DNA of 64,000 nucleotides. Source: a virus. Positions 5,063-63,662 of this stretch are shown piece by piece (position 1 is the stretch's first letter; each line of letters begins with the position of its first letter). The position numbers and the translations under genes were made by a program. Where the stretch lies: the IMG/VR virus record IMGVR_UViG_3300036770_006627, positions 1-64,000 of that record; one strand, 5' to 3'. A model generated the notes under the pieces. The model made no database searches and was not told where the DNA came from. It saw only the letters and a list, made by a program, of their open reading frames with translations.

Positions 5063-5419
5063 ATGGCTGCTCAATTCTCGCGGTACCGGGCGCTTGTCCG
5101 GACGCTCAAGACCCACTGTTCTCCCGCGTTTCCAATTTTTGTCAAACGCGTCAAGCTTCCGTCGCATATCGAAGGGCGCTGTTGGAAAAACGGCAAGAAG
5201 TTCATCATTCAGCTCGACCACCGGCTTGACGAAAGCCGCGCCATCGACGTACTCATTCACGAGTGGGCGCACGCGCTGGCTTGGAATCACCGGCTCGACG
5301 CCTGCGCGACCGACGAGGCGTTCAACAAGCTTGCGCATGACGCGGCCTGGGGTGTTGCGTACGCCGAGGTGTACTGCGTCTACGAGCAGAAGTTCATTCC
5401 AGCCCAGGCGCGAATTTGA
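5063..5419 (+). CDS. Zincin-like putative metallopeptidase (HEWAH)
   Basis: 118 residues from ATG 5063, preceded by GGGGCAGAGAGC. The metalloprotease signature HEWAH is at residues 66-70 within 'IDVLIHEWAHALAW', fitting the minimal zincin HExxH zinc site. Preceding strands 'KKFIIQLDHRLDESRAIDVL' resemble SprT-like or small phage zincins. No signal peptide is seen, so it acts in the cytoplasm or virion. The substrate is unknown. It stands alone after the fibre genes, and its stop codon runs into a copy of the GATATC palindrome. Confidence 0.72.
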   Translation: MAAQFSRYRALVRTLKTHCSPAFPIFVKRVKLPSHIEGRCWKNGKKFIIQLDHRLDESRAIDVLIHEWAHALAWNHRLDACATDEAFNKLAHDAAWGVAYAEVYCVYEQKFIPAQARI

Positions 5420-5430
5420 TTGATATCTTT
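5419..5430. repeat. GATATC palindrome, variant copy 1 (ATTGATATCTTT)
   Basis: Variant of the dispersed AAAGATATCTWT element. It begins on the last base of the upstream stop codon and lies 61 bases before the ATG at 5491. Confidence 0.55.
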
Positions 5431-5490
5431 GGCGACTGTGTTACGCTGTCGGCGCGGTAATGGCGAGTCGTAATTTTTAAGGAGTAACGC

Positions 5491-5958
5491 ATGACCCGGG
5501 CTGAATTGCTCGAACTTCTCGCGAGCGATCTGCGAAACGAGCGCAAGCATCTGAATTTCTATCTTTATCACGCTAGCGCCGTGATTGGGCTGCACGGTCA
5601 GCGTGAATATCGGGAGTGGCTGCTGGAAGCCGCCGCGAGCGAGCTGGCGCACGTAACGGCGTTCCAAGACCGGCTTTGGGGCCTGGGCGCCGCGGCAGTG
5701 GATACCTCGGCCAGCGATTTTGAGTGTTTTACGCGCGTTGAAGACGTGCTGGACTACGCCCGCGAGATGGAAGAAGAGGTCGTGGCAAACTACACGCAGC
5801 GCCTGGCGCAGCTCGAGGGCGCAAATTTTCTGGAGTCGCGGTATATGGCCGTGTTTTACGAAGACCAGCTCCAGGACAGCTACGAAGACTGCGAGCGGAT
5901 CCGCCGTATCCTGGCGGACAGCCGCGCGACAAAAACGCCCCGTCTGCGGCCGCTATAA
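5491..5958 (+). CDS. Ferritin-like (bacterioferritin/Dps-type) protein
   Basis: 155 residues, ATG 5491 with AAGGAG upstream. The sequence reads as a four-helix ferritin-like bundle. Glu17 in helix A, and Glu51 plus His54 of an ExxH pair in helix B (SELAHV), have the spacing of bacterioferritin diiron ligands. A second pair of helices carries 'EMEEEVVANY' and 'FYEDQLQDSYEDCERI', where the usual final His is not obvious. It may bind iron or have lost ferroxidase activity. Such proteins could protect DNA or manage iron during infection; this is inference. Start and frame are secure. Confidence 0.7.
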   Translation: MTRAELLELLASDLRNERKHLNFYLYHASAVIGLHGQREYREWLLEAAASELAHVTAFQDRLWGLGAAAVDTSASDFECFTRVEDVLDYAREMEEEVVANYTQRLAQLEGANFLESRYMAVFYEDQLQDSYEDCERIRRILADSRATKTPRLRPL

Positions 5959-6055
5959 GCGTCTGGCGGTACTTTTCGCGTAGCGCTTGCGGCGCCGTGT
6001 TTGGTATTATGACCGGGTCGCCCAGAGTCCAGATTTAGAGTTGCAAGGAGCTGTC

Positions 6056-6715: not shown

Positions 6716-6734
6716 TCTTCCCAGGAATGCCGAT

Positions 6735-7370
6735 ATGACCACGCCGTACGAGTTTGGTCGGCACCTCGGTTCGCTCTCCAAAGAGGCTGCTGAGAAAGAA
6801 GCGCGCGGGCTTCTTGCCGACGTGGCTCTTTACTCGAATCCTTGGACGGGCGTGCCGACGGGCATTTACGACACCTACAACTCGCTGCGCAGCGGGAACT
6901 ATCTTGGTGCGCTTGGCAACGCGGCGAACACAGGCCTGAGTTTGTTTGGCGGCGGGGCAATCACCAGCGGGTTGAAGGGCCTCGGGGGTGGTCTAATGCG
7001 CGCTGGCGCTCGCGTTGGCGCTAGCACCGTGTTACCGCAGGCAGCCAGGGGCGCGATCCAGACGGGCCTTCATGTGGCTGGCCGCGGTGCTGTGGGCGCA
7101 GGCCGCGCGCTGGGCGTTGCGGGTGGCAACCTGGCCGGGCGTGTGGGCGAACAGGCGTCGCAGGCTATTTCTCAGGGTATTCAGAAAGTTGTGCCAGTCC
7201 GTGCAGGCGCTACGTTCATGAAGAACCCAGTGCGCGCCACGATAAATGCCGCGGTGAAAAATCCGCTAGTCGCGGGTTCGTTTTTCCACAACAGCGGCAA
7301 TCCACAGCCTTCTGCGCCGATGCCGCCGACACCTGCGCCGTCTGCGCTTCCGGGCACACTGCCGCGCTAA
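6735..7370 (+). CDS. Gly/Ala-rich virion-type protein, paralogue of upstream gene
   Basis: 211 residues from ATG 6735 (CCAGGAATG upstream), 19 bases after the preceding stop. It shares the N-terminal motif '[FY]EFGxxxGSLxK[QE]A' with its neighbour, then has Gly/Ala-rich hydrophobic stretches (residues ~58-160) and a Pro-rich C-terminus. No enzyme motif is seen. Likely structural or membrane-active. The TAA stop is embedded in an exact AAAGATATCTAT element. Confidence 0.72.
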   Translation: MTTPYEFGRHLGSLSKEAAEKEARGLLADVALYSNPWTGVPTGIYDTYNSLRSGNYLGALGNAANTGLSLFGGGAITSGLKGLGGGLMRAGARVGASTVLPQAARGAIQTGLHVAGRGAVGAGRALGVAGGNLAGRVGEQASQAISQGIQKVVPVRAGATFMKNPVRATINAAVKNPLVAGSFFHNSGNPQPSAPMPPTPAPSALPGTLPR

Positions 7371-7380
7371 AGATATCTAT
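7369..7380. repeat. GATATC palindrome, exact copy (AAAGATATCTAT)
   Basis: Overlaps the TAA stop of the upstream gene and lies just before the RBS (AAGGAA) of the gene at 7396. Intergenic copy. Confidence 0.8.
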
Positions 7381-7395
7381 TCAAGGAATCGCGCC

Positions 7396-8273: not shown

Positions 8274-8520
8274 CACGCCCGAAGCGCAGCTGCTCAAGTG
8301 CATGAGCGAGCTGGGCGAGCTGGCCGACGCGCAGCTCAAACGCGACAGATTCGAGATTATCGACGGCATTGGCGACGTCCTTGTAACGCTGATTCTGTTC
8401 GCCAGGCTCAGCGGTCTGGATATCCGCGACTGCCTCGCGCACGCCTACGGCATGATCAAGGACCGCAAGGGCATCCTGATGCCCAACGGCGTCTTTGTGA
8501 AGGAGGACGACAATGCCTGA
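8206..8520 (+). CDS. MazG-like nucleotide pyrophosphohydrolase
   Basis: 104 residues with the all-alpha NTP-PPase (MazG) signature: 'SELGELADA' (ExxE) and 'EIIDGIGDVLVTL' (ExxD), which coordinate magnesium. The family hydrolyses nucleoside triphosphates to monophosphates and pyrophosphate. Phage versions have been proposed to lower (p)ppGpp or clean nucleotide pools. The strong SD GGAGG is hidden in a hairpin, so translation may be regulated. It overlaps genes on both sides. Single-domain short form. Confidence 0.85.
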   Translation: MTWNELITAVEQWAEARKIIPNSTPEAQLLKCMSELGELADAQLKRDRFEIIDGIGDVLVTLILFARLSGLDIRDCLAHAYGMIKDRKGILMPNGVFVKEDDNA

Positions 8521-8917
8521 TCCCGCCAAACGTTTCATTCTCAACGTTGAGCAGCGCGTCTACGTTGAGAAGTCCTGGGGGCACGAGGACTGGATCTACA
8601 ACGGCCGGTACTGCGGCAAGAAGCTGCACGTGAAAAAGGGCAAAATGTGCTCGTTTCATTACCACCGTGTGAAGGATGAGGTGATGTACCTGGAGTCTGG
8701 TAAAATCATTCTCACGTACGGCTGGGATGAAGATCAGGCACACGCGGCGCAGATCACGCTGACGCCCGATATGGCTTTTCATATTCCGCCGGGCATGTGG
8801 CACAGATTTGAGGGCGTAGAAGACTCTGTAATTACTGAATTCAGCACGCACCACTCCGACAAAGACGTCGTGAGAGCTGGGCAGCAAGAGCCTGAAGACA
8901 AGGATGAAGAAACATGA
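8513..8917 (+). CDS. Cupin-fold protein
   Basis: 134 residues. Cupin motif 1 appears as 'CSFHYHRVKDEVMYLESGK' (H-x-H..E metal ligands) and motif 2 as 'MAFHIPPGMWHRFEG' (His). The start 'VEKSWGHEDWIYN...YCGKKLHVKKGK' resembles mannose-6-phosphate isomerase-like and sugar-related cupins. It could act on a sugar or be a non-enzymatic binder, which would fit the glycan cluster downstream. The C-terminal ~15 residues are acidic. ATG overlaps the mazG stop; its own stop overlaps the next ATG (ATGA). Confidence 0.8.
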   Translation: MPDPAKRFILNVEQRVYVEKSWGHEDWIYNGRYCGKKLHVKKGKMCSFHYHRVKDEVMYLESGKIILTYGWDEDQAHAAQITLTPDMAFHIPPGMWHRFEGVEDSVITEFSTHHSDKDVVRAGQQEPEDKDEET

Positions 8918-10107
8918 CCGAGAAAGAAGCAGTCAACGTTGCTGACGTTCTCAAGACCGTGCGGGCCGTACCGGGCGCCGTGGGTCGCGCCGTGGCTGGC
9001 GTTCCTGGTGGCGTGGGCGGTTTTGCGCTGAACACGGCACGCCGCGGGCTGAACGCAGTTGGCGACCTCGGCGTTTCGCTGACGCGGCCTGGTATCAGTC
9101 CGGAGTTTGCGCCTGAAATAAACAAGGCGCTGTGGAACGCGTCGACTGCGGCAAAGGGACTTGGGACGAAAACAGTGGGCGCGTTACAAAAAGGCGTCGA
9201 GCGTCTGACTGGCATGCCGCACACGAGCAAGTTCAATCCGCTTAATGTGGCGACGGGCGCGGGCATTTTTGGTGCGGGTGCGGCTGCTCTTACAGGCCGT
9301 GGTTCTAAGCCCGCGGCGCCTGCAGCCTCGCCCGCAGTGTCAGTCTCGCCTGCCTCTGGCCTGGCCGGGCTCAGTCAGCGCGGCATGGACATGTGGAAGA
9401 ACTTGCCGGTAGAAGCTCGGTACGCGATTGGTGCTGGCGTCCCCCTGGCGCTGCTTGGCGGTTACCTCGGTCGTAAAGGCGGCCTCGGAGGCCTCGGTCT
9501 CGGTGCGCTCGGTCTTGGCGCCGCAGCGCTGGGGGGCGCCAGTGGCGGCGCGTTTGGCGACGGTGCGCGCCGGTTCTCGGGCAAAATGCTCTACAACCTC
9601 GGCTCGTTTTTTGGCGGCAAGAGCGACACGGCGAGCCAGATTAACCGGCTTTCTGGTTTGAGTCCCGGCATGGGCGCTACGGTGCTCATGGGGCGCGACC
9701 CGAGTCTCTCGAGTGCAGACGCGCTGCAGCAGTACGAGTTTCTTACCAAGAACAAAGACATGATCGCGCGGATGCTGCCCAACCTTGATGCGAAGAAAGC
9801 CAGCGCCAACGACCTGTTCAAGCTGGCGCGCTGCTGGAAGGGCTACGAACCAGTTCCGGGCAAAGCGCCTTACAGCGAAGACTCCTGCCGCCCGGTCGGC
9901 AGCAAGAAGAAAAAGAAAGAAGAGAAGAAGGCGGGCAGCCATGCGTTCAAGCTCACCAAGAAAGAGCACGAAGAGGTCGTCGAGGGCGGCAAGCCGTCGA
10001 TCGAATCTAAGCTGCACAAGGTGACGCCGCGCGACCCGTCTGAGGGCGAAAATCTCCGCCCGCATGGCGCGCTTGTATCGCCGGACGACAAACCCGTCGC
10101 CGATTGA
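8914..10107 (+). CDS. Large Gly/Ala-rich virion-type protein
   Basis: 397 residues beginning 'MTEKEAVNVADVLKTV', with Gly/Ala hydrophobic segments at ~108-125 and ~165-215 (repeated 'GLGGLGLGALGLGAAALGG') and a strongly basic/acidic C-terminus (KKKKKEEKK near residue 330). It is coupled to the cupin gene by ATGA. No enzyme motif is seen. The layout matches the membrane-active proteins at 6-8 kb. The TGA stop is inside a GATATC element variant. Confidence 0.7.
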   Translation: MTEKEAVNVADVLKTVRAVPGAVGRAVAGVPGGVGGFALNTARRGLNAVGDLGVSLTRPGISPEFAPEINKALWNASTAAKGLGTKTVGALQKGVERLTGMPHTSKFNPLNVATGAGIFGAGAAALTGRGSKPAAPAASPAVSVSPASGLAGLSQRGMDMWKNLPVEARYAIGAGVPLALLGGYLGRKGGLGGLGLGALGLGAAALGGASGGAFGDGARRFSGKMLYNLGSFFGGKSDTASQINRLSGLSPGMGATVLMGRDPSLSSADALQQYEFLTKNKDMIARMLPNLDAKKASANDLFKLARCWKGYEPVPGKAPYSEDSCRPVGSKKKKKEEKKAGSHAFKLTKKEHEEVVEGGKPSIESKLHKVTPRDPSEGENLRPHGALVSPDDKPVAD

Positions 10108-10114
10108 TATCTAT
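10103..10114. repeat. GATATC palindrome, variant copy (ATTGATATCTAT)
   Basis: Contains the TGA stop of the upstream gene and lies 32 bases before the phoH start. Confidence 0.6.
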
Positions 10115-11608: not shown

Positions 11609-11939
11609 ACCCCGCGCGTTCATTCACTCGTACACAGAGGGCACATGCGGGAAAGACGCAGGGAGGCGGTCCCGACCTGGCCGCGATTGCTATAAACGAT
11701 CGCGCCGCGACGGAAAAAGTACCTGCGGGAGCGGCCTGCCGACCCGGGCCGACTTTGCACCCTATCGGACAGCCGGGGCGCCGGGATGCTGCGGAAAGAT
11801 ATCTTTTCGCGCTTAACGCTGGTTGCTGGGTTCCTAACGCCGTCCGAGCGTGTCCTTCGCCCTTACGCAACACGAGCACAAGTGGGACACGAGCGGTCCT
11901 GCTGCCAGCGCCCAGCCCGCCTTTTTTAACTTGCGTCTA
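11606..11939. other. 334-base gap with no accepted gene
   Basis: It holds a possible promoter -10 at its start and a GATATC palindrome extended to a 20-bp near-perfect inverted repeat (11791-11810). The frame of the downstream gene stays open back to a GTG at 11850, but I see no SD there. The rest is GC-rich with no clear terminator. Confidence 0.5.
11795..11806. repeat. GATATC palindrome, exact copy (AAAGATATCTTT), intergenic
   Basis: Centre of a 20-bp inverted repeat, GCGGAAAGAT/ATCTTTTCGC, with one mismatch. It is 134 bases before ATG 11940. Confidence 0.8.
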
Positions 11940-12617: not shown

Positions 12618-12689
12618 TGCCCGATAGCACAACGGTAGTGCGCGCGACTGTTAATCGTGAGGTTCCAGGTTCGAATCCTGGTCGGGCAG
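12618..12689 (+). tRNA. tRNA-Asn (GTT)
   Basis: A full cloverleaf can be drawn: acceptor TGCCCGA/TCGGGCA, D-arm GCAC/GTGC, anticodon stem CGCGA/TCGTG (one G-T) with loop CTGTTAA giving anticodon GTT, T-arm CCAGG/CCTGG with TTCGAAT loop, discriminator G. No CCA is encoded (GCTTTT follows). It starts on the base after the Myb-like gene's stop, so processing from a shared transcript is likely. Confidence 0.94.
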
Positions 12690-15948: not shown

Positions 15949-17343
15949 ATGTTACCAGTCACTGCAATTCAACAAATCGTCAGTATTCCCGACGCTACGT
16001 TCACGCCGTACGACGTACCGGGGAATGACCGGCCTCACGTTTATCTGGATCTCTATCCAGAACGCGCGTACGACAGCGCCATCATCGTCGCGCCGCATCA
16101 TCACGAAGCGTGGCTGAACGTACATCTTTTCAAGCTGGCGCTGTTCTGCCGCGAGCACAAGATCAAGCTGATTTCGATCGGTCACGAAAACCAGTTGCCG
16201 TTTTTTGGCATGTTTTCAGACGCGGTGATTCTGCAAAAAGGCTCGCTGGACGCCATGTTCGGCTGGTTCTCGACGTTTTCGACGAGCACTAAAGGGTTTG
16301 ACCAGCTCGCCGGTTGGAAAGATATCTATAAGCACGACGACCTGCCCTGGGACGCCCTGCCAATCGCAGCGGACAAAATTCCAGACGCGCGCCGCCGGTA
16401 CAAATCGCCGTGGCGCGCGATTTACGGCCACTATTCTGCTGAGCACGTGATTGCGCAATTTAGCGACTGCCGCATATTCCTGCGGGAGTCGAGCCTCGAG
16501 ACTTTTCACGCCCTCAACGCTAAACACGAGCTGCCCCGCAACGCGTTTTGGTGCGAGGTCAAAGAGAAGTTCGGTAAATTCAATGCCCGCCTGCGTGTGT
16601 TGCAAGAGTCCGGCACGCCGCTCGCGGGTCTCGACAAAACAATGCAGCGCGATCTGGTGCGGAAGCACGGCACGCATTTCATGGCACTGCAAATTCTTAC
16701 GACGCTATTCAACAACTGCCGCCTGCTGACAGGCGCAGGTAGCTCGCACGTGTTCGCCGTCGCGCCCGGCGTGTTGGCGATGTGCATCGGCGCCGCCGAC
16801 CGGTTCTACACCGACGAGACGGAAATGATCGTGCGCAAGATGCATCAGCACAGGTACGGGATTGTGCCTTACACAGAGGAAGCCACGCTGACGTGGATGT
16901 GCGCAGATACGGCGCCGATGTTTTCCGCTGCGGAAGAGCACGCGGCAATTGCGCACTGGCAACTGGATTATTTTCTCGACGTTCCAACGATCAGGGCTCA
17001 TCTTCTGGCGGCACTGGCGCAGACGCCGAAAATGAATATTGTGCAGACGTCGTGGCTGGACTACTTGACCGAAAAGAAGTTCTTGGCGTTTACACAGGCG
17101 CCGACAGTGCGGTTTCTTCGCGGCGACGGCGCTCATTTGATGGACACTAAACTGACGCCAAGCGGCCGTTTAGCGCCCGCGAGCAGTAATGAGACGTTCT
17201 GGACGGTTATTGCTGAGCGGATGATTTTAAAGACGCATCTTGGGCAAACAGCGACAATCATGCTGCCAAGATCAGACGGCGTGCTTGCTGGGCCGTTTAT
17301 TTACAACGCCGACAAGATCGAACACCAATTCAGTCTCACGTGA
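15949..17343 (+). CDS. Putative glycosyltransferase-like protein of the glycan cluster
   Basis: 464 residues with no clear signature. 'DSAIIVAPHHHEAWLNVHLFKLALF' followed by 'KLISIGHENQ', and a later 'LLTGAGSSHVFAVAPGVLAMCIG', have the feel of a two-domain GT-B fold such as GT9 or GT-like proteins that lost key motifs. It sits between two transferases and overlaps no neighbour. The function is inferred only from position. It contains an in-frame copy of the GATATC element. Confidence 0.55.
   Translation: MLPVTAIQQIVSIPDATFTPYDVPGNDRPHVYLDLYPERAYDSAIIVAPHHHEAWLNVHLFKLALFCREHKIKLISIGHENQLPFFGMFSDAVILQKGSLDAMFGWFSTFSTSTKGFDQLAGWKDIYKHDDLPWDALPIAADKIPDARRRYKSPWRAIYGHYSAEHVIAQFSDCRIFLRESSLETFHALNAKHELPRNAFWCEVKEKFGKFNARLRVLQESGTPLAGLDKTMQRDLVRKHGTHFMALQILTTLFNNCRLLTGAGSSHVFAVAPGVLAMCIGAADRFYTDETEMIVRKMHQHRYGIVPYTEEATLTWMCADTAPMFSAAEEHAAIAHWQLDYFLDVPTIRAHLLAALAQTPKMNIVQTSWLDYLTEKKFLAFTQAPTVRFLRGDGAHLMDTKLTPSGRLAPASSNETFWTVIAERMILKTHLGQTATIMLPRSDGVLAGPFIYNADKIEHQFSLT
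16318..16329. repeat. GATATC palindrome, exact copy (AAAGATATCTAT), coding frame 0
   Basis: Encodes K-D-I-Y at codons 124-127 of the gene starting 15949. Confidence 0.75.
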
Positions 17344-17356
17344 ACGCAGGAGTACC

Positions 17357-18337
17357 ATGGCGCCGCTTAAAGTCGTGTTTCAGAATTTTCAAAGTCCGGG
17401 CGACTTGGTGATGCTGTTGCACGCTGTTACGAGTCTTCACGAGACGCATCCCGGCGCATTTCTTACCGACGTCGATTGCTCGGTCAAAGATATCTTTTAC
17501 GGCAATTCGCTGATCACGCCGCTCGACAAGAACGACCCCGAAGTGAAAAAGATTCGGGTCGAGTATCCCAGTATCCACCGCAGCAACACTCATCCGGTTC
17601 GCTTTGTCGAGTCGTTCAGCGAAGATCTCAGCCGAAAGCTGGGCGTTCCGATCCGCTCCAGTCGGTTTCAGGATTTCTTGCCAATCACTGAGCAAGAGGC
17701 TCAGTGGTATTCCGGCGTTCACGAGATTCTTAAACGTGACGTGCCATATTGGGTGATCAACGCCGGGCACAAGTTGGATTACACGGCCAAGGCCTGGAGT
17801 TTCAAGCGCTACCAAGAGCTGGTTGAGCGGTTTCCTAACCTATGGTTTGCGCAAGTCGGCTCTAAAGAGCACCGTCATCCTGTGCTTTCAGGGCCCAATG
17901 TGTTGAACTTCGTGGGGAAAACAAACGCGCGGCAGCTCATTCGGCTTGTGTACAACTCGTTCGGCGTAATCTCTGGTGTCAGCTTTCCCATGCACCTGGC
18001 GTACGCTGTTCCCGCGCATCCGCGTTTCAAGCGGGCCTATCGCGCCAACATTACGATTGCGGGCGGGCGCGAACCGGCGCATTGGGAGCAGGGCCCCAGT
18101 CACCAGTTTCTGCACACCTGCGGCATGCTCAACTGCTGCAGCCAGGGCGGGTGCTGGAAAAGCCGTGTCGTGACGCTGGGCGATAAAGACGGCAAAGACA
18201 AGAGTCTTTGCGAGATCCCGGTCGCGATGGAAGACGGGCAGTGGATCGCCTACTGCATGTCGTTAATCACCGTGGACGACGTGGCCCGGCAGATCGAGCG
18301 TTACATGGCGCATCTCGATTACGAGCCGAAAACGTAA
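17357..18337 (+). CDS. GT9-like (heptosyltransferase-type) glycosyltransferase
   Basis: 326 residues from ATG 17357 (GCAGGAGTACC upstream); an earlier in-frame start would lie inside the preceding gene. 'FQNFQSPGDLVMLLHAVTSLHETHPG' matches the N-terminal GxxGDxxxxxPxxxxL pattern of ADP-heptose:LPS transferases, and 'YWVINAGHKLDYTAKAWSFKRYQELVERF' the donor-binding C-terminal domain. A Cys-rich 'CGMLNCCSQGGCWKSRVV' near residues 253-270 is unusual and may bind metal. It probably transfers a sugar to a surface or virion glycan. Confidence 0.75.
   Translation: MAPLKVVFQNFQSPGDLVMLLHAVTSLHETHPGAFLTDVDCSVKDIFYGNSLITPLDKNDPEVKKIRVEYPSIHRSNTHPVRFVESFSEDLSRKLGVPIRSSRFQDFLPITEQEAQWYSGVHEILKRDVPYWVINAGHKLDYTAKAWSFKRYQELVERFPNLWFAQVGSKEHRHPVLSGPNVLNFVGKTNARQLIRLVYNSFGVISGVSFPMHLAYAVPAHPRFKRAYRANITIAGGREPAHWEQGPSHQFLHTCGMLNCCSQGGCWKSRVVTLGDKDGKDKSLCEIPVAMEDGQWIAYCMSLITVDDVARQIERYMAHLDYEPKT
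17486..17497. repeat. GATATC palindrome, exact copy (AAAGATATCTTT), coding frame 0
   Basis: Encodes K-D-I-F at codons 44-47 of the GT9-like gene. Confidence 0.75.
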
Positions 18338-24899: not shown

Positions 24900-25934
24900 A
24901 TGACGGCAGCCAAAGATATCTATGCGTGGGAGGCGGTCCCTGCGCGGGTGGCCGAGCTGCTGCCTGCGGCGGCTCGGGCACGCGTTGCGCACGAGAAAGC
25001 GGCGCTGGCTGCCGATATTCTTCCGCTGGCCGTCGCGACATGGATGGCCGAGTGCAACACGATTACGCTCTGGACAAAGGCGCCGCTCCCTGAGAAAAAC
25101 GCCGCGATTTACCGAGAGCATCTGGGCGACTATGGTTTCGTGCGCAACTGCCAGGCGCCGAACCTGGAGCGCGAGATTCTTATCAAGCAGGCGGCGCTCC
25201 CTGGCGCAAAGCACGTCTTCGAGCTGGGCAACGCTGCGCTGGGCGGTCCGACACCGCTCTCAAACGGCATTGTTTCGGCGCTGATGCTGGGCGGCCTGGG
25301 TTACGGCACCGGCGCGCTTGCTGAGCGTCTGTTTCCAGAGCGAGCTAGGCGCCGCGGCCGGTTAAGTAAAACACTTGGCCTCCTGGGTGCCGGAACTGGC
25401 TTGGGAGTGGGCGCGCTGAACGCCTACGCCAATGCGCAAGCTCTGAAGCGCCCCTACTTGAAAAGTCTGATAACCAGTAACGACACACCTGTTGTGTATC
25501 CGTTCGAAAAGGAAAGCTACGTCGTCAACTACGGTTTTAATCCAGCTAATCCGATGGTTCCTGACGCCGTGGGCATAAATCAGCCGACAATCTCTGTGCC
25601 GCAGTTCAACACGGCGCTGTGGCGTGACGTGCACAAGGGCATGATTGATCCTTACGGGCCGTTTGGTCAGCACACGCCGCCCCCGCTCGCTGCTGCCGCG
25701 ACGGGATTGATGAGCGGCATTAGCACGGGGTTGCAGTCCCCCATGATTCGCCCGATCGACGTGGTCCGGGGCTTTGCCTCGGCCGGTGTCGGAATGGCGA
25801 CGGCTAACGTCGCCGGGCGGACGCTTTCAGCGCTGGCGGTGCTGCCTCCTGCAACACAACATAAGCTCCAGGATTTGGGTCTTTGGGGCGGGATGATGCA
25901 TGCGGCTATGCCGCCACTTTTCCGCGGGTATTAG
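24900..25934 (+). CDS. Hypothetical membrane-associated virion-type protein
   Basis: 344 residues, ATG 24900. The N-terminal ~100 residues are helical and charged; Gly/Leu-rich hydrophobic segments lie at ~122-145 and ~160-180 and a last one near 255-300. It contains 'IKQAALPG' and 'FEKESYVVNYG', similar to the EKxA-type motifs of other presumed virion proteins here. No enzyme motif. It carries a GATATC element at codons 5-8. Confidence 0.65.
   Translation: MTAAKDIYAWEAVPARVAELLPAAARARVAHEKAALAADILPLAVATWMAECNTITLWTKAPLPEKNAAIYREHLGDYGFVRNCQAPNLEREILIKQAALPGAKHVFELGNAALGGPTPLSNGIVSALMLGGLGYGTGALAERLFPERARRRGRLSKTLGLLGAGTGLGVGALNAYANAQALKRPYLKSLITSNDTPVVYPFEKESYVVNYGFNPANPMVPDAVGINQPTISVPQFNTALWRDVHKGMIDPYGPFGQHTPPPLAAAATGLMSGISTGLQSPMIRPIDVVRGFASAGVGMATANVAGRTLSALAVLPPATQHKLQDLGLWGGMMHAAMPPLFRGY
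24912..24923. repeat. GATATC palindrome, exact copy (AAAGATATCTAT), coding frame 0
   Basis: Codons 5-8 (K-D-I-Y) of the gene starting 24900, 12 bases after its start codon. Confidence 0.75.
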
Positions 25935-27667: not shown

Positions 27668-27961
27668 ATGACTACGTTTCAGCTTCTTGCTTTGCTTCTC
27701 TTTGCCGGTGTAGTCCTCGCAGCTTACGGCAAAGATATCTATGCCCGGCTGAAGGCCAGGCTGCCCAAATTGCCGCGGCCGGTGGTCAATCCCGTCGCGC
27801 CTGACGCGCCGCCGGTCACGGGCGATCTGCTCGTCGACGACCTGCTCGATGTTTCCGAGCTTCGGGACCGGTTTGCCGCTGAGGGCTGTGAAGAGGGCGT
27901 CGAGGCGTGCTCGCTCTTGCTCAAAATCCTGATCGACCACAAACATCCGCACGCGGGGTGA
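27668..27961 (+). CDS. Small N-terminally anchored protein
   Basis: 97 residues, ATG 27668 with ATGGAGG upstream. A TM or signal segment spans residues ~4-20 ('FQLLALLLFAGVVLAAYG'), then a Pro-rich linker and an acidic C-terminal helix with two Cys. No family recognised. It contains a GATATC element at codons 22-25. Likely envelope-associated. Confidence 0.65.
   Translation: MTTFQLLALLLFAGVVLAAYGKDIYARLKARLPKLPRPVVNPVAPDAPPVTGDLLVDDLLDVSELRDRFAAEGCEEGVEACSLLLKILIDHKHPHAG
27731..27742. repeat. GATATC palindrome, exact copy (AAAGATATCTAT), coding frame 0
   Basis: Extended symmetry GGCAAAGATATCTATGCC with a single mismatched pair. Encodes G-K-D-I-Y-A. Confidence 0.75.
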
Positions 27962-35400: not shown

Positions 35401-36810
35401 CGCACCGGTACTAAAACGCACATCATGGCCATCGCCGACAAAGACGTCGATCAGCTGGCTGAAGATCGAGAAATCACCAGTTCTGAAACAGTGGACTGGA
35501 AAGGACGATTGAAGCCAGTTCCGGGCGGCCTATTCGACGAGAAATTAACCGGCGGACACGGCGGAAATCGTTGGGCAAAGATATCTTTGCACGAGCCGAT
35601 GCCCAATCCGGTTATGGAAGAGCCAATTCGTCGAGTTTTGGGACTTACCGAAAAGCAGTTTCGCTCTGTCTTGGCGGGCGAGACGCAGCTGTTCGACAAG
35701 TCGGGTCCTAGCGCGATTAAAGACGCGCTTGGCCGGATTAATCTTCCCAAGGCTATTGAACAGTGCCGAGAAGACATTAAGTCGGGCCGCAAAACGCTCC
35801 GCGACGCCGCCGTGCGCAAGCTCGGTTTTCTCAAGGCCGCCGAGAGCCAGGGAATTCATCCCCAGGAGTGGATGCTCACCAAGATGCCCGTCTTGCCGCC
35901 GTTGTTCCGGCCGGTCTCGACGATGGGCGCCAAGAAGCTCCCGCTCGTGGCTGACGCGAATTATCTGTACAAGGAGTTGATCGACTCAAACAGCGCGCTG
36001 AAGGACGCCTCCGGCGCCCTGGCGGAGTACGGCAACGAGCGCCTCGGCCTGTATGACGCGATGAAGGCGGTCTCTGGCCTGGGAGATCCGACGCAGCCCA
36101 AGAATCAGGAGCGGCAGGTCAAGGGATTCTTGAAGCACATTTTCGGCAGTTCGCCGAAGTACGGCACCGTTCAACGCAAACTTCTAGGCACCACGGTCGA
36201 CCTGGTGGGCCGCGCCGTAATCACGCCAAACCCGGACCTGGACATGGACGAGGTGGCGCTGCCCGAGGACAAAGCCTGGGAGGTCTACAAGCCGTTCGTG
36301 GTGCGCGGCTTGGTGCGGCGGGGGTTGCCGCGGATGCAGGCCCTCCAGCACGTCGAGGACCGCAACAAGGAGGCGCACGCGGAGCTGGAGCGGCAGATGT
36401 CGTCCCGGCCGATTGTAATCAACCGTGCGCCGGTGCTTCATCGATACGGTATGATGGCCTTCTACCCAAAGCTCACTAAGAACAAGGTGATGGAGGTCAA
36501 TCCGGTCATTACCAAGGGTTTTAACGCCGACTTCGACGGGGACGCGATGCAGTATCACGTTCCTAGCACGGACGACGCGGCAAAGGAAGCCGTCGAAAAG
36601 ATGCTTCCCTCAAAAAACTTGTTTGCGGCGGCTAACTTCAAAGCGCACTATATTCCGCAGGCTGAGTTTCAGTCCGGGATTTACCTGGCCAGCAGCCGGG
36701 TCGACAAACGCGCGAAGCCGCGGGTATATAAGTCACGGCAGGACGCCATTAAGGCCTATCGGCGAGGCGAGATTGAGGTCGATACCCCGGTGCATATAGT
36801 CGAGAGTTAA
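32440..36810 (+). CDS. RNA polymerase beta subunit fused to N-terminal part of beta-prime
   Basis: 1456 residues. The first ~960 follow bacterial RpoB: 'DSGTFVNRGVEYTL', 'RVTRMGEGGIG...VQPSHLGYIDFLRTPE' (fork-loop region), 'NLRVGYLPFRGKVYEDAVVISE', and GRFGDKGVV at 777-783 before 'LVSPLGLISRVNASQ'. From ~residue 1029 ('GGLFDEKLTGG') it is RpoC-like: 'MPVLPPLFRPV', 'KLLGTTVDLVGRAVI', 'NRAPVLHRYGMMAF' and the catalytic NADFDGD at 1362-1368 with all three Mg-binding Asp. It ends before the bridge helix, which is in the gene at 37789. Likely the catalytic core of a phage RNA polymerase. Confidence 0.93.
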   Translation: MPDSILGQTPPQHRAFGDIHALRSGIFDRALQSASAIEPIKNDLYTLQLSDVNYTGPERYNKRDQKRAVLTGNSLHRRLTGTWNLIDNATGQPIAKRQQTIAHVPYLTDSGTFVNRGVEYTLAHQMRLKAGVYTREKDNGELEAHVNVLPGKGRMHRYFLDPKTGVMKINIGQAQIPLMPLLKALGAKDADIRGAWGNEITAVNMEKGDAGTLDKLYQRLVYKQTPGLDAAAKQQAIATEFARMELDPDVTRRTLGKEYKNLTPEAILDITKKLIAVNRKEADPDDRDAMAYQSVVGPEDLIAERFSKDKQALRKLLWKATAKKNLDHVPTGFFNKAINAALIGSGLGSSLEEINPAEIFDHQNRVTRMGEGGIGSLDAVPVESRAVQPSHLGYIDFLRTPESGKAGVDMRFARGAVKGSDGKIYTPVRNMQTGAQEYKTPGELADMPVAFPGEEKTDLPMVAALVGGKMKYMPREEVQYSLPHMDSTFSALSNMLPLKSMIKGQRAIMGSRMFTQALPLNDAEAPFVQSAVVDKDGISHEDEMGEKLGAVKAQFHGQVVSVSPDEIVLRDRDGNKSTVDLYNDMPFNRKTFWHQTPAVQPGDTIKPGQLLAHSNFTDKQGSAALGKNLRVGYLPFRGKVYEDAVVISESAAKKLTSQHMYQHEAEWSDNTHVGKKAFVSLFPSEYDKKTLAQFDDKGAIQKGTVVNYGDPLVLQAKAKETTYGKVHRGRAGAFSNDTITWDHHSPGIVTDVEHTDKGVSVVVKSTAEMQVGDKLTGRFGDKGVVADIVPDHQMPHDKDGSPMEVLVSPLGLISRVNASQVIEAALGKVAAKTGQPFKIKDFDSEKDIIAFAQNELGKHGLSDTEDVIDPETGRKIKGVLTGHRFFMKLHHTSESKGQGRAMGAYTAEGTPAKGGSEGAKRVGMLDLGALLSHGAGKVIRDAKMVRGQANPEYWSQFMSGYTPPLPKVPHVYEKFVNQLRASGINTVRTGTKTHIMAIADKDVDQLAEDREITSSETVDWKGRLKPVPGGLFDEKLTGGHGGNRWAKISLHEPMPNPVMEEPIRRVLGLTEKQFRSVLAGETQLFDKSGPSAIKDALGRINLPKAIEQCREDIKSGRKTLRDAAVRKLGFLKAAESQGIHPQEWMLTKMPVLPPLFRPVSTMGAKKLPLVADANYLYKELIDSNSALKDASGALAEYGNERLGLYDAMKAVSGLGDPTQPKNQERQVKGFLKHIFGSSPKYGTVQRKLLGTTVDLVGRAVITPNPDLDMDEVALPEDKAWEVYKPFVVRGLVRRGLPRMQALQHVEDRNKEAHAELERQMSSRPIVINRAPVLHRYGMMAFYPKLTKNKVMEVNPVITKGFNADFDGDAMQYHVPSTDDAAKEAVEKMLPSKNLFAAANFKAHYIPQAEFQSGIYLASSRVDKRAKPRVYKSRQDAIKAYRRGEIEVDTPVHIVES
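35577..35588. repeat. GATATC palindrome, exact copy (AAAGATATCTTT), coding, other frame
   Basis: Part of the perfect 16-bp palindrome GCAAAGATATCTTTGC (35575-35590). It reads A-K-I-S-L, so not in the K-D-I-Y frame. Confidence 0.8.
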
Positions 36811-42131: not shown

Positions 42132-42527
42132 ATGGCAAGTACGATTTGGTCAGGCGAAACGACGTTTGAAGCTGCGAGCGGCACGCAGACGGTGGTTCCA
42201 ATTCGCGTGCCGCACCGCGGCATTATTCGCGGCTACAGCCTGACACAGACTAGCGGCGCCAATGCCGGTGCCGCTGCGGCGCTCTACACCAGCAAACAGG
42301 ACACTGCGCCAAACAGCACGTTGCCCGCTGAGGCGTTTCACATTCTCGACATCACGCTGCCCACGGCGGCCAAGGTCGACGACCACAGCGCTGAAGTGGC
42401 CTATATCAACCGAGACGGCACGCCGACAAATCCACAAAGATATCTTTACCTGAAGATCACCCCGGCGGGCTCGGGCGCCAAGAACTTTGTGTTCTCGGTG
42501 ACGATTGAAGTCCCGAAGATGGGCTAA
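42132..42527 (+). CDS. Small beta-rich structural protein
   Basis: 131 residues, ATG 42132 with AAAGGTGAAAC upstream. Thr/Ala/Pro-rich beta sequence ('GTQTVVPIRVPHRGIIRGYSLTQTSGA', 'RYLYLKITPAGSGAKNFVFSVTIEVPKMG') suggests an Ig- or jelly-roll-like virion decoration protein. The TAA overlaps the next ATG. A GATATC element lies near its 3' end. No motif-level identification. Confidence 0.65.
   Translation: MASTIWSGETTFEAASGTQTVVPIRVPHRGIIRGYSLTQTSGANAGAAAALYTSKQDTAPNSTLPAEAFHILDITLPTAAKVDDHSAEVAYINRDGTPTNPQRYLYLKITPAGSGAKNFVFSVTIEVPKMG
42436..42447. repeat. GATATC palindrome, exact copy (AAAGATATCTTT), coding, third frame
   Basis: Reads Q-R-Y-L-Y. This frame differs from both the K-D-I-Y and the A-K-I-S copies. 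Confidence 0.75.
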
Positions 42528-43456: not shown

Positions 43457-45312
43457 TGATGCAGCCCCTTTCGAAACAGGCTGAAGCACAGCTGATCAGC
43501 GCGATTGAGCGCGCGGCCAGCTACGTGAACGCCGGTCTTACTCCGAACGCCGCGATCATCAAGAGCGCCAGCGAGTCGGACGTTCCCGCGGGCCATATCA
43601 ATCTTATGGTCCACGCCTACAACACGGGCCGCACGACCAAACAACGCGAGCAGGGCGAAAGCACGCTGGAAAAGGCAGCCGACTTCCCTCTGGCCGACGC
43701 CGACACCGTGATGGACGCGTTGTTTCCCAAAGCGGTGAAAACTTCTGCTGAACTTTCAAGCGCGCATGCGGTTTCGGCCGACTACGCCGTTAGTCCTGCC
43801 GGAATGCTGGCGCGCCGCAAGGCCGCGCAGTCCAAGGAGGCCGCTGCAAAGATATCTTTGCCCGAGAAGACGTGGGTCCCTCCGCCTCGCGACGAAGAAG
43901 CGGCCGTTCGACGGGCTGCCTCTGAGAAGCGGGCTGCAGAGTTGGCCCAGGAAGAGCTTCGTCGTCAGGCCACGGCGGCTTACAGCAAAGCCGCGGCGGC
44001 GATGGAAGAGCTTCACGAGTATTTCCGCCGTCCGGGCAATTTGAGTTTTCAAGACGCCGTGCGCGAGACCGAATTGCGCTACGGCGAGGACGGCGTGACC
44101 GTGCTTAACAAGCTAGCCGCCGTTTACCCGCACCTGACCAAGCAGGCCGCCACAAAGGACGTCATCATCGGCGATTGCCAGCCCTGCAAGCTGGCCGCCG
44201 CGGTGCTCAGCGCCCTTGAAGCTTACAACGAGGCGCAGGCGCGGGTGCCCGCGGCGAAGCAGGCCGCAGCAAAAAAAGCTGAGCCAGCGGTCGTCACCGG
44301 AAGCATTCTGCACAACCCGGCCGATGAACCGCTGGTGTTAAAGGGCGCCATGGCGGCTGGCGATCGCTGGGGCCTAGTCGATCCGCCGCGCGCTGGGCAA
44401 GAAGGCGCGCCGCGGCTTGGCAACAAGGGAACTGAGGTCGACCCGGCAGCGCATGCAGACTTTGTCAATCGGCGACCATCGCCGGGCGACAATTTCCGAC
44501 TTGTTATGCCTGACAATAAGCTCGGCAACCCTGTTTGGGTGCATCAGGACGAAACAATGCCCGAAGATGAATACGACCGGATGCGGTCCGAGCAACTGGC
44601 GCACGAGGCTGCTAATCGAGCTGCGCGCCAGCAGCAACAGCGAAACTCCGGCTCGCCGCTAATTCCAGAAGACGACGAACTCGATTACTCAGACGAGGGC
44701 GCGGAACCCGACAGCTTTGAAGACGCGGGGCCAGTAGGCGGCGGTCCTGGCGGTGGCGGTCCTGGCGGTGGCGGTTCTGGCGGTGGCGGTTCTGGCGGCG
44801 GTGGCCGCCCTTCTCAACCATCACGTTCTGGTCGGCAGCGGCGACAAGGTAGCCGCGGCGGCGAGCGCGAAAGCGGCGGCTTTAGCCTTGCTCCGGTGCG
44901 CAGCGGTTTCCTCAGCGCGGCCAAGGCCATCGCCAGCCGAATGGCGCAGGGCGCGGCTGAAGGCGAGAAAAAGATGAAGACCAAGGCCTACCAGAGCCTT
45001 ACCGATCCGGAGCACGAGACGGCCCTGCGCAACATCCGGGCACAGAGCATGCTCCACGATATGGTGCTTAACGACCCGGTGATCTCCGGCCACGATCCAA
45101 CCGAGGTGGCGCAGGCTTTCAACGAGCTGGCAGACGTGGCGCCGCAGTTTGTTGACTCCCCGGCCGCTATGCAAGCGCTGCTGCGCAAACGGCTTGAGTC
45201 CGGGCAGATGGCCGACTTCGATGTGAAGCAGCTCATCGACATGGAGAAGGCCAGGGCCGAAACTGCAAAAGCTCAGATGGACACAAAAAATCTCGAACGG
45301 CAGATGATTTGA
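43456..45312 (+). CDS. Long charged, linker-containing virion/scaffold-type protein
   Basis: 618 residues, coupled by TAATG (ATG 43456 or 43459). It begins 'PLSKQAEAQLISAIERAASYVNAG', has Ala/Glu/Lys-rich helices (~130-200), an acidic region and a natural glycine-rich linker of GGGGP/GGGGS units (~residues 428-450), then a basic segment and a helical C-terminal domain (~510-618). Probably a multi-domain structural or scaffold protein. No enzyme motif. Confidence 0.65.
   Translation: MMQPLSKQAEAQLISAIERAASYVNAGLTPNAAIIKSASESDVPAGHINLMVHAYNTGRTTKQREQGESTLEKAADFPLADADTVMDALFPKAVKTSAELSSAHAVSADYAVSPAGMLARRKAAQSKEAAAKISLPEKTWVPPPRDEEAAVRRAASEKRAAELAQEELRRQATAAYSKAAAAMEELHEYFRRPGNLSFQDAVRETELRYGEDGVTVLNKLAAVYPHLTKQAATKDVIIGDCQPCKLAAAVLSALEAYNEAQARVPAAKQAAAKKAEPAVVTGSILHNPADEPLVLKGAMAAGDRWGLVDPPRAGQEGAPRLGNKGTEVDPAAHADFVNRRPSPGDNFRLVMPDNKLGNPVWVHQDETMPEDEYDRMRSEQLAHEAANRAARQQQQRNSGSPLIPEDDELDYSDEGAEPDSFEDAGPVGGGPGGGGPGGGGSGGGGSGGGGRPSQPSRSGRQRRQGSRGGERESGGFSLAPVRSGFLSAAKAIASRMAQGAAEGEKKMKTKAYQSLTDPEHETALRNIRAQSMLHDMVLNDPVISGHDPTEVAQAFNELADVAPQFVDSPAAMQALLRKRLESGQMADFDVKQLIDMEKARAETAKAQMDTKNLERQMI
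43848..43859. repeat. GATATC palindrome, exact copy (AAAGATATCTTT), coding, other frame
   Basis: Centre of a second perfect 16-bp palindrome GCAAAGATATCTTTGC (43846-43861), identical to the one at 35575-35590. It reads A-A-K-I-S-L-P. Confidence 0.8.
44737..44805 (+). repeat. 15-bp tandem repeats encoding a Gly4Pro/Gly4Ser linker
   Basis: About 4.5 copies of GGCGGTGGCGGTyCT within the gene at 43456. They probably vary in copy number by slippage. Confidence 0.8.
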
Positions 45313-52840: not shown

Positions 52841-52989
52841 GGGCATATTAATTGCCCAGGGTTTTGCACCGGAGCGCATTCCCTGCGGTGTTTCGGCGCG
52901 GTAGTATCACGCTACCGTGTGAAACGCGCGGAATAGATATCTATTGGCGGCTGTATCGGAAAGCCGCTGCGCGCTGGGCGCTACCCAGT
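52841..52989 (+). ncRNA. Candidate structured intergenic RNA
   Basis: The 187-base gap (52825-53011) holds successive hairpins: GGGCA/TGCCC (52841-52857), CAGGG/CCCTG (52857-52885), a ~13-pair stem with one bulge (52891-52924, core CGGTAG/CTACCG), GCGGCT/AGCCGC (52947-52967) and CTGGG/CCCAG (52974-52988). A GATATC palindrome lies between the third and fourth. It could be a 3' end structure, a leader for the gene at 53012, or a small RNA. Hand-drawn. Confidence 0.4.
52933..52944. repeat. GATATC palindrome, symmetrical variant (ATAGATATCTAT), intergenic
   Basis: Perfect 12-bp palindrome, 68 bases before ATG 53012, flanked by hairpins on both sides. Confidence 0.65.
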
Positions 52990-53657: not shown

Positions 53658-53671
53658 TACAATAACGTCTA
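53658..53671 (+). promoter_or_regulatory. Possible promoter giving a leaderless transcript
   Basis: TACAAT (53658-53663) lies 7 bases before ATG 53671, after the terminator, and no SD is present. The start site would be at or next to the ATG. The -35 region (TTCTTA) is weak. Confidence 0.35.
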
Positions 53672-54981
53672 TGTCCAGTTTTAAACGCTTATTTCCGTTC
53701 CGCCAGGTGGCCGTGGATCACATGGTCCGCGGCGTCACCCGGGTCTGGTGGCAGCTAGAGCGGACCTTTAACGACCCCGGTCCGTACGTCTTTCAGCTCC
53801 AGTATGGCAACACCCCGTTAAACGACGCGGCGGACTGGCGCAACGTCGGCGGCCCGGTCACAGACGGGTACGTCGCCTACGACGACGTCTGGCGCGCTGC
53901 CGGTAGCGACCTGGTAACGCATTACCGCGTGACGCTAACTACGCCGAAAGATATCTATGTCAGCCAGCCTGTTTCTTGTTTCGGCGAGCTGGCCGAGCGA
54001 GATTGGAACATTGCCCGCGAAATCATCCGCAAGGAGCAGCTTCGTCACAAGTACGTCTCTGTTTCCGGCTTCCTGATCAAGCCCTTCCGATTTGGACGGC
54101 CCTGCACCCGCTGCCGCGACCAGCTCACCGGCGAAGTTTTAGACTCCAACTGCCCGGTCTGCTCGGGCACAGGTTTTGAAGTGGGCTACCACCCGGCCCT
54201 GCCGCTGCAGTGCTGGGACGTGGCGCCGTACACGATCACCGAGGACCAGGACACCAACGCCCTGGGCACGACCCGCAAAGACCACATGACCCGCGCGCGC
54301 GTCATCGGTTTTCCGACCCTGAACACCAATGACATCTGGGTGAATGGCGCAAGCGATGAGCGCTGGATCATTCACTCCATCAAGGTAGCCGCCGCCATCC
54401 GGGGCGTACCGTTGATTTACGACGTCGAAATGGGCCTCGTGCCGCTGACCAACGCTATTTATGCGATAGAAATAGGCGGCGAACCAGCTGAACGGCCTGG
54501 CCCGACCTTGCCGATTTTGGGCTGCGGTTCCGTGCTGGTCGATCACAATTACGGCGGTGTCGACAACCTGGCCTACCGGGATGCGACCGGCTACAGCGTG
54601 GTGGGCGCAAACGTTTACATTTTTCCGAAAGATGTTTTTGACGCCGCTTACCCGGCGCTGCCTAGCCGCAATTTGGCCGTCGCTGGAACCACGACACGCG
54701 TAAACGGTCGCTGGACAGAATCTCTGCGGGTCGAGCCGGGTGATTACGCCGTGCTTTACGAAAAACCGGGCGAATGGGGGCCTGATTACGATTACATTGC
54801 CGCCGTGCCAGCAGACGCTGAAAGCTCATTCGTGTGGACTGTTGCGGCGCTGGGTGTTGAAACAAGCGACGCCCTGCCAGCCGACTTGGCAACCGAGGTC
54901 AGCGAATCTGTTATTACCGAGACTGAAGAACGACTACCCGCGCCGTCGCCGGAAGAAGAGGACGATTTCTGGCGCTTCTAG
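53671..54981 (+). CDS. Neck/head-tail structural protein with CxxC zinc motif
   Basis: 436 residues, ATG 53671 without SD. 'GRPCTRCRDQLTGEVLDSNCPVCSGTGF' (~residues 142-169) contains two CxxC pairs of a zinc ribbon; the rest is beta-rich ('AYDDVWRAAGSDLVTHYRVTLTTPKDIYVSQPV'). The acidic tail 'EEEDDFWRF' ends it. Position between head and tail genes suggests a connector or neck protein. It contains an in-frame GATATC element. Confidence 0.65.
   Translation: MSSFKRLFPFRQVAVDHMVRGVTRVWWQLERTFNDPGPYVFQLQYGNTPLNDAADWRNVGGPVTDGYVAYDDVWRAAGSDLVTHYRVTLTTPKDIYVSQPVSCFGELAERDWNIAREIIRKEQLRHKYVSVSGFLIKPFRFGRPCTRCRDQLTGEVLDSNCPVCSGTGFEVGYHPALPLQCWDVAPYTITEDQDTNALGTTRKDHMTRARVIGFPTLNTNDIWVNGASDERWIIHSIKVAAAIRGVPLIYDVEMGLVPLTNAIYAIEIGGEPAERPGPTLPILGCGSVLVDHNYGGVDNLAYRDATGYSVVGANVYIFPKDVFDAAYPALPSRNLAVAGTTTRVNGRWTESLRVEPGDYAVLYEKPGEWGPDYDYIAAVPADAESSFVWTVAALGVETSDALPADLATEVSESVITETEERLPAPSPEEEDDFWRF
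53947..53958. repeat. GATATC palindrome, exact copy (AAAGATATCTAT), coding frame 0
   Basis: Codons 93-96 (K-D-I-Y) of the gene starting 53671. Confidence 0.75.
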
Positions 54982-59333: not shown

Positions 59334-59341
59334 ACGGTAAT

Positions 59342-59366: not shown

Positions 59367-59391
59367 GCAACCTCACCGTGACTGGTGGACA

Positions 59392-62280: not shown

Positions 62281-62292
62281 AAGGAGTGCCCC

Positions 62293-63273
62293 ATGGACCT
62301 GGTCGATACACCGCACGTATCTGAATTCACCAAGAAAACACTTGGCCAATTCGGCTGGAAAGACGGCGACGCAATTCCCGCCGAACTGGGCCCGATGCTC
62401 GTTAAGTTGCGCGAGACGTTACCGCCGTCTCCGCGAACGGACGTGCTAGTTGACGTCGCCGCACTGCCACCCGCCACTGTCGAAGAAATCAAGCAAATGT
62501 TGGCGGCTGCGCGAGTCGCCGCCGCTGCTGCCGCAAAACAGCGGGCGGCTGACGCCGCGATGGAGCACTTAAATCCGGCGGCGCAGCAATTACTGCGTAC
62601 GCTCAAGGACGACGACGCGACCCCGCAGATCATCGACGATCGCGCCACAGTCACGGACGCGGCAACAGAACCGCGACCAGAAGAACGCGCCACGCCGCCC
62701 GAGGTGCCCGCAACATCGGCAGACACCACAGGCACGACGCCGATGGCAGTGTTGCCTTTTTGCCCGCGGTGCGGCTGGGACATGCGGCAACGGTTTGAAA
62801 TCGTACCCACCGATTTGGACAAGGAAGACTTCTTGGCAGCCGCGCTGGGAGGCACGAAATTCAAGCGGGACTATCCGATGTTTGGCGGCAAGATGGTGGT
62901 AATGTTTAACACCATTTTGGCAGATGAAAACAAGATGATTCACCGCCAGCTGGTTTTAGACCAGGAATCCAAGCGCATCGTGACGGAAGCAGAATGGTTT
63001 GTACAGATGCTCGAATACCGCATGGCGTTAAGCCTTGTGGCAATTGTTGACGCCAACGGTAAACCGACGGCGGTTGTTCCTGCGCTGGGCGAGCTTCCTG
63101 CGGTTGACGGAGAAAGCCCGATAGTCACTTTGACGAATTACGTGAACACCAAAGTTCTCGCTCACGAGGTTACCAGGCGACTTGTCGGACAGCACCTCCG
63201 ACAGTTTCAGCGTCTGGTAGAAGCCCTCGAAGCGATGGCGCTCGAACCGTCTTTTTGGAACGGGATCGCCTAG
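62293..63273 (+). CDS. Tail assembly chaperone/baseplate-type protein with CxxC
   Basis: 326 residues, ATG 62293 with AAGGAGTG upstream. Ala-rich helices (~55-110), a Pro/Thr-rich linker, then 'LPFCPRCGWDMRQRFEIVPTDLDKEDFLAAALGG' with one CxxC, and a helical C-terminus. It lies between the spike and the presumed tape-measure start. Its end overlaps a -1 frame that continues into the next gene, as in tail chaperone pairs, though I see no canonical slippery heptamer. Confidence 0.55.
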   Translation: MDLVDTPHVSEFTKKTLGQFGWKDGDAIPAELGPMLVKLRETLPPSPRTDVLVDVAALPPATVEEIKQMLAAARVAAAAAAKQRAADAAMEHLNPAAQQLLRTLKDDDATPQIIDDRATVTDAATEPRPEERATPPEVPATSADTTGTTPMAVLPFCPRCGWDMRQRFEIVPTDLDKEDFLAAALGGTKFKRDYPMFGGKMVVMFNTILADENKMIHRQLVLDQESKRIVTEAEWFVQMLEYRMALSLVAIVDANGKPTAVVPALGELPAVDGESPIVTLTNYVNTKVLAHEVTRRLVGQHLRQFQRLVEALEAMALEPSFWNGIA

Positions 63274-63281
63274 CGGCCTTA

Positions 63282-63662
63282 ATGGTGCGGGCCGCCGCAT
63301 CGGGAGCGATCGATTACTCCCGAGCCGATCCCAAAGATATCTATTGGAGAATTCGCCACCGCCTTGTCATCAAAGAAATGCAGCGGAGGAATGACGAAGA
63401 GCTGTTTGAGGCTGTACAGCGGCACTGGCTCGCATTTATTGCGCACGGCCGTTTGACGGAAGAAAGCTACGAGGACGTCAAAAAACGCGTGGAAACCGCG
63501 CTTATTGACCTGCAAAAAGTGATTTACCCGTGGGTCGCAATTGATCAATCGCGACCCGAAGCTGAAGGACAAAAAGATACAATAAAGCCTGAAATACGAA
63601 ACTTGATTGACCGCTATAAGCGCGCACAAGAACGGTGGCGACAGGAAACGCTTGAAAAATAG
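63282..63662 (+). CDS. Second tail assembly chaperone-like protein
   Basis: 126 residues if started at ATG 63282; the frame opens at TTG 63255 inside the previous gene, and neither start has a good SD. Helical and charged ('DPKDIYWRIRHRLVIKEMQRRNDEELFEAVQRHWLAFIAHGRLTEESYEDVKKRVETALIDLQKVIYPWVA'). It may be made by -1 frameshift from the upstream gene or by coupling. It contains a GATATC element at codons 18-21. Confidence 0.58.
   Translation: MVRAAASGAIDYSRADPKDIYWRIRHRLVIKEMQRRNDEELFEAVQRHWLAFIAHGRLTEESYEDVKKRVETALIDLQKVIYPWVAIDQSRPEAEGQKDTIKPEIRNLIDRYKRAQERWRQETLEK
63333..63344. repeat. GATATC palindrome, exact copy (AAAGATATCTAT), coding frame 0
   Basis: Codons 18-21 (K-D-I-Y) of the gene starting 63282, 51 bases after the ATG. 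Confidence 0.75.

Follow-up and report, generated by a model that had tools for sequence, protein, structure and literature searches.

The window analysed here is the first 64,000 nucleotides (bases 1-64000) of an uncultivated virus record that is 86,687 bases long, and the genes of the window include those for two RNA polymerase proteins (Table 1). When reversed, a second record of 203,910 bases (G001, locus L003) has the same gene and site coordinates as the window, and because of this match the array of palindromic sites described below was studied over G001, which is a near-complete jumbo phage genome of ~204 kb with its own multisubunit RNA polymerase. The genes called in G001 run one way in 223 of 227 cases. 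Relatives, among them G003 and G021, were retrieved by means of the beta'C subunit, and the annotated phages nearest to the window phage are Salmonella phage Arash and three Vibrio phages, at ~25% protein identity. The Pfam scan of G001 covered most of its proteins, all but a few split between loci, with up to 25 families listed in some batches, and among the matches listed we see no integrase, ParA/ParB or CI-like repressor, nor any immunity repressor, prophage maintenance or lysogeny genes.

Several other features were seen in passing. Rfam places a tRNA gene in a short gap between ORFs of the window (12618-12689), and further on lies a UDP-galactopyranose mutase-type gene (13234-14334) with glycosyltransferase matches nearby. 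G001 also encodes a 69-aa CsrA-like protein (98808-99017, one CsrA Pfam match), which is unusual for a phage, and two neighbouring small proteins (133450-133731 and 133760-134122) with a near-identical 40-aa stretch, PFPKVSPERLLETLRMNYESGDILCGDAADEIERL, representing a local duplication.

Table 1. Palindromic sites, RNA polymerase genes and promoter-like elements (window coordinates unless G001 is named).
Feature	Position	Strand	Context
site ATTGATATCTTT	5419..5430		directly after stop of ORF 5063-5419; position common to G021 and G003
site AAAGATATCTAT	7369..7380		overlaps stop codon of ORF 6735-7370
site ATTGATATCTAT	10103..10114		end of ORF 8914-10107; position common to G021
site AAAGATATCTTT	11795..11806		intergenic; same base in G003 carries TTTGATATCAAA, flanks conserved
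site AAAGATATCTAT	16318..16329		ORF 15949-17343, frame 0
site AAAGATATCTTT	17486..17497		ORF 17357-18337, frame 0
site AAAGATATCTAT	24912..24923		ORF 24900-25934, frame 0; position common to G021
site AAAGATATCTAT	27731..27742		ORF 27668-27961, frame 0; position common to G021
RNA polymerase beta-beta'N fusion, 1456 aa	32440..36810	+	window context
16-bp palindrome GCAAAGATATCTTTGC	35575..35590		within RNA polymerase beta-beta'N gene, frame 2
RNA polymerase beta' C-terminal subunit, 624 aa	37789..39663	+	window context
weaker site AAAGATATCAAA	38608..38619		within RNA polymerase beta'C gene, weight-matrix match
site AAAGATATCTTT	42436..42447		ORF 42132-42527, frame 1; position common to G021; same letters in G013
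16-bp palindrome GCAAAGATATCTTTGC	43846..43861		ORF 43456-45312, frame 2; position common to G021
promoter-like GCTAAAT-N15-GGCATAT	52820	forward	
site ATAGATATCTAT	52933..52944		intergenic; position common to G021
site AAAGATATCTAT	53947..53958		ORF 53671-54981, frame 0; position common to G021
site AAAGATATCTAT	63333..63344		conserved ORF 63282-63662, frame 0
promoter-like GCTAAAT-N15-GGCATAT	G001 96348, 165204, 185415, 186067, 186928, 187339 (window orientation)	forward	

An initial annotation of the window had listed 11 exact copies of a palindrome, three close variants (ATTGATATCTTT, ATTGATATCTAT and ATAGATATCTAT) and two perfect 16-bp palindromes (GCAAAGATATCTTTGC), and all of these are present where it placed them. 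It is also correct that five of the 14 sites (5419, 7369, 10103, 11795 and 52933) are intergenic or overlap a stop codon, and that the frame 0 copies comprise five TAT-form sequences and one TTT-form sequence, encoding KDIY or KDIF, the other three coding copies, of TTT form, being in frames 1 and 2. The scatter across the window that it described is real but larger in extent, as the array spans the entire ~204-kb genome. A symmetric weight matrix assigns 51 sites to G001, 46 to G003 and 40 to the 154 kb of G021. The tolerated motif, WWGATATCWW, is wider than that first described, its best intergenic form being ATAGATATCTAT. Information is confined to approximately 6 bp on either side of the centre in G001 and 9 bp in G003, and there is no consistent conservation beyond the palindrome within 60 bp of the sites.

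The abundance of the motif is far above what Markov and codon-preserving nulls predict. There are 39 copies of AWAGATATCTWT in G001 as compared with ~0.01 from a third-order expectation, and 0 copies of the same pattern read backwards. Among palindromic 8-mers, AGATATCT is the most over-represented both in the window's own record (16 copies vs 0.25-0.44 expected) and in G001 (42 vs 1.1). With one mismatch allowed the window contains 25 strand-matches, vs a mean of 0.14 and a maximum of 3 in dinucleotide shuffles. Codon bias as the cause is ruled out by codon-preserving shuffles, in which the 9 copies within window genes compare with 0.34 on average and at most 3 (500 shuffles), and the 27 within G001 genes with 0.86 on average and at most 4. 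The motif also recurs outside the window in G001, and close relatives have it too, so that neither of the two outcomes named initially as refuting the observation was obtained. Two further 12-mers are repeated in the G000 record, TTCTGACCATTACACC with 5 copies and GTGGTCAGTGTATTTTC with 4.

The coding copies provide further insight into the level at which selection operates. Every one of the 14 KDI[YF] peptides that G001 encodes has the coding sequence AAAGATATCTWT, that is, AAAGATATCTAT or AAAGATATCTTT, and therefore selection acts on the DNA; GAT and TAT are minority codons in this genome (1083 GAT vs 2555 GAC; 585 TAT vs 1273 TAC). A conserved peptide motif is ruled out as the cause by this single codon string, together with the location of the other sites off-frame or in intergenic DNA. 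A mobile repeat is likewise ruled out, as flanks are not shared among the sites, and so is an RNA element, since there is no Rfam match at the window sites and the two arms of a perfect palindrome adjoin, with scarcely any space for the loop of a hairpin. We regard it as established that the array is real, that it is a DNA-level feature, and that it is under selection in both coding and non-coding DNA.

About two thirds of the sites (~60-70%) lie fully within coding sequences, in all three frames, and across the ~204 kb these in-gene copies show no dependence on gene starts. Sites that are not fully within genes nevertheless constitute 30-39% of the total vs 9-11% expected, a 3-4.5-fold over-representation. 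Intergenic copies in G001 favour ATAGATATCTAT, and in-gene copies carry AAA on the left, which had been taken as an asymmetry co-directional with transcription. This is largely a codon constraint, because ATA is rare in frame 0 (165 of the 2736 Ile codons in G001) and ATAG introduces a stop in frame 2; the few asymmetric copies in intergenic DNA are unbiased (1 vs 2 in G001).

The ~50 copies in G001, about one per 4 kb, are also more evenly spaced than chance would predict. The comparison was with random placement in which the numbers of in-gene and outside-gene sites were held constant (10,000 draws). The coefficient of variation of the gaps is 0.59 in G001, 0.60 in G021 and 0.67 in G003, vs about 1.0 for random placement (1.01 for G001), with evenness at least as great in 0 of the 10,000 draws for G001 and at P = 0.0003 and 0.0007 for G021 and G003 respectively. 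Gaps shorter than 1 kb number only 3, 2 and 3 in G001, G021 and G003, vs 10-12 at random; the median gap is 3.5-3.6 kb, and the largest is 9.7-11.9 kb across the three genomes (~11 kb in G001). Evenness is absent in the looser relatives G013 and G009. Such spacing is not expected of an ordinary promoter set or of restriction sites, and the sites, being spread evenly over ~200 kb, are ill-fitting for a single packaging or partition locus, packaging and partition having been among the initial suggestions. It also bears on whether the sites serve a phage nuclease, nickase or modification enzyme in self-recognition, DNA ejection or recombination-dependent replication. The palindrome has an EcoRV-like GATATC core, there is a PD-(D/E)XK-type family match among the window proteins, and SbcC/SMC-type families occur among the large phage proteins; but the recognised word is 12-18 bp long with variants tolerated, and we found no enzyme whose presence tracks the array, so that we consider an enzymatic role improbable.

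Comparison with relatives shows that site positions are retained well beyond chance. By local alignment, a site is also present in G021 at 25 of 33 alignable G001 positions and in G003 at 10 of 30, most of the latter in a switched form, vs 0 of 90 for random control positions. At coding sites all 12 of the 12 letters are identical in 10 of 21 cases, vs 5.8% of control windows. The word used by G003 (L006) is TGATATCA in place of AGATATCT (31 copies vs 1.1 expected); its site reads (C)ATTGATATCAAT(G), with an extended 18-bp form CTCATTGATATCAATGAG. At most of the positions shared with G003 the flanks align and both arms of the palindrome have changed, as at 11795, where CTGCGGAAAGATATCTTTTCGCGC becomes CTGCGGTTTGATATCAAATCGCGC. 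Between G001 and G021 there is a suggestion, but no more, that lost sites are replaced by others nearby (P of 0.06 and 0.003); towards G003 such replacement is absent.

The distribution of the array follows the RNA polymerase tree. Strict arrays fall in one clade (L003-L008 and L043, support 98/91); in a second clade each near-complete genome has 16-28 copies of WWGATATCWW, among which the two arm types occur together with hybrids of them, and the remaining relatives are near zero (0-6 copies). From this pattern we infer an ancestral relaxed specificity, WWGATATCWW, that narrowed to WAGATATCTW in one lineage and to WTGATATCAW in its sister. Other over-represented words in G009 and G018 do not form arrays; they proved to be repeats within the coding sequence of tail-fibre or collagen-like genes. 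One ORF of G009 (oriented 112850-116231) carries a coding repeat, with CCGCCAGCGG recurring at multiples of ~45 bases.

A separate element, the bipartite GCTAAAT-N15-GGCATAT, is present in each of the six genomes tested, the array-less G018 among them, on the forward strand and with nearly all copies intergenic. There are 2-14 copies per genome, with a spacer of 15 in 24 of 25 strong cases, and the element is likely to represent a class of promoter; it opens up the transcription programme of an unstudied phage group. The palindrome lies directly upstream of the first box of this element in 1 of 9 cases in G001, 3 of 5 in G003 and 6 of 14 in G009, the last count taking in every GATATC. A few sites probably act as operators as well, the great majority being without a promoter-like element. 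The initial suggestion of a phage RNA polymerase element, with the palindromes themselves as promoters or enhancers, would accord with their intergenic enrichment and with the many that lie 20-140 bp upstream of a start codon. However, the palindromes have neither the fixed flank nor the upstream-of-gene position of phage promoters; no flank is conserved within 60 bp, most sites are in genes, the symmetry is strict, and it is the GCTAAAT-N15-GGCATAT element that occupies the promoter-like role in all six genomes, so that we disfavour this explanation and consider it very unlikely indeed.

Among phage systems already described, the nearest to the array is the network of stoperators in cluster A mycobacteriophages. 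Stoperators are asymmetric, oriented with transcription, and situated in promoters and short intergenic spaces (PMC9283540). The resemblance is that in L5 and Bxb1, as here, tens of copies of one short word are distributed genome-wide and the word varies among related phages, in the stoperator case together with the repressor. By analogy, a phage repressor or roadblock protein might bind operators at a few promoters and block or terminate elongation at the many sites within transcription units. The one-way arrangement of the genes means that a transcribing polymerase would encounter sites at intervals of a few kb, the adjacency of some palindromes to the promoter-like element is as this model would have it, and the cluster A network has lineage-specific words (PMC6550527). 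On the other hand, stoperators are 13-bp asymmetric sites in one orientation, bound by a monomeric repressor in temperate phages that have an immunity repressor and prophage genes, whereas the sites here are symmetric, 12-18 bp long and evenly spaced, with a residual asymmetry that is largely codon constraint; most are within genes and not in promoters or short intergenic spaces, and the Pfam listings, which cover most G001 proteins, show no genes for lysogeny. We therefore judge this mode of control to be a doubtful second choice.

In geometry, the nearest counterparts are the dispersed palindromes bound by nucleoid proteins of bacteria. Noc has about 70 sites with a 14-bp palindrome, and SlmA sites are likewise dispersed palindromes (PMC4726725). 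As in the array, the Noc sites of B. subtilis and the SlmA sites of E. coli are present in tens of copies, and each docks a DNA-binding protein that acts at the scale of the nucleoid, which is what we propose here. They differ in belonging to megabase host chromosomes, where they are uneven with few near Ter, whereas the phage array is even with about one site per 4 kb. In the Pfam listings for most G001 proteins we see no homologue of Noc, ParB or SlmA and no ParB-type family, and hence no sign that the phage encodes the ParB-fold CTPase that is characteristic of ParB-parS and Noc. The array does share with the sites of Noc, SlmA and MatP a dispersed palindromic word that is independent of gene boundaries. 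The matS sites of MatP are palindromic and define genome organisation, but they are limited to the Ter macrodomain and involve a different word and protein.

Overall, the palindromes are probably read by some protein through which the phage genome as a whole is organised or controlled. The explanation that we rank first, with a probability of roughly 0.45, is that a dimeric DNA-binding protein with sequence specificity, probably encoded by the phage, docks at the sites and organises the genome. Binding as a dimer is suggested because the sites have strict two-fold symmetry and change arm by arm. A dimeric phage protein of the helix-turn-helix (HTH) type would bind each site and bridge or tether the DNA, and the 200-kb genome would thereby be split into loops or kept from host DNA during replication, the model for bridging being nucleoid-organising proteins on dispersed palindromes of bacterial chromosomes; the small promoter-adjacent subset would double as operators. 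The intergenic excess and the few sites abutting promoter-like elements would also fit a transcription regulator. Of the functions put forward initially, a selected protein site with a genome-organising or an operator role survives and the RNA polymerase element is not supported. Tentatively, a jumbo lineage of lytic type may punctuate its genome, within genes as well, with evenly spaced docking palindromes for its own architectural protein, a sister lineage having rewritten ~forty sites to suit an altered specificity of the protein while approximately a third of the alignable sites stayed in place to the base. Literature searches found no published description of this array. If it is architectural, it would provide a first handle on how a large lytic phage genome is organised in the cell, and one that is testable by a simple word, and the switch of word between G001 and G003 with retained positions is a natural experiment on how a set of sites and the specificity of a protein change together.

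The search for the binding protein compared G001 protein profiles with Pfam and considered presence and absence among genomes, with two HTH candidates modelled and compared with the PDB; the HTH family profile was too divergent for a genome scan. The first candidate, a 239-aa protein (G001 112879-113598), is predicted with confidence to have a three-helix domain (pLDDT ~90) followed by a C-terminal helical hairpin. The recognition helix of this protein is conserved among G001, G004 and G021, with changes in G003. The protein was nevertheless rejected, as array-less phages carry a near-identical recognition helix. The second, a 158-aa tandem-HTH protein (176356-176832), is full-length only in G001, G002 and G003, all of the strict-array clade, and was rejected as its helices differ between G001 and G002 despite their shared word. 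PDB comparison of both models gave weak matches only (all E>0.2). The 239-aa protein lies next to a paralogous HTH protein (112446-112835), both having the C-terminal hairpin, and the longer of the two occurs in many relatives.

As neither HTH candidate was accepted, a host nucleoid or division protein might instead bind the sites, different words then reflecting different hosts; Noc and SlmA show that host proteins do bind dispersed palindromes (PMC4726725). Against this, the word follows the phage tree, and among ~85,000 species the 18-bp G003 form gave no dispersed array in a plausible host, occurring mostly as an Anaerococcus repeat. We accordingly give a host protein little credence, and favour a phage-encoded architectural protein. 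The 18-bp sequence CTCATTGATATCAATGAG is found in many Anaerococcus contigs (L293, L294, L324, L336, L339 and others), often near their ends, and resembles a mobile repeat.
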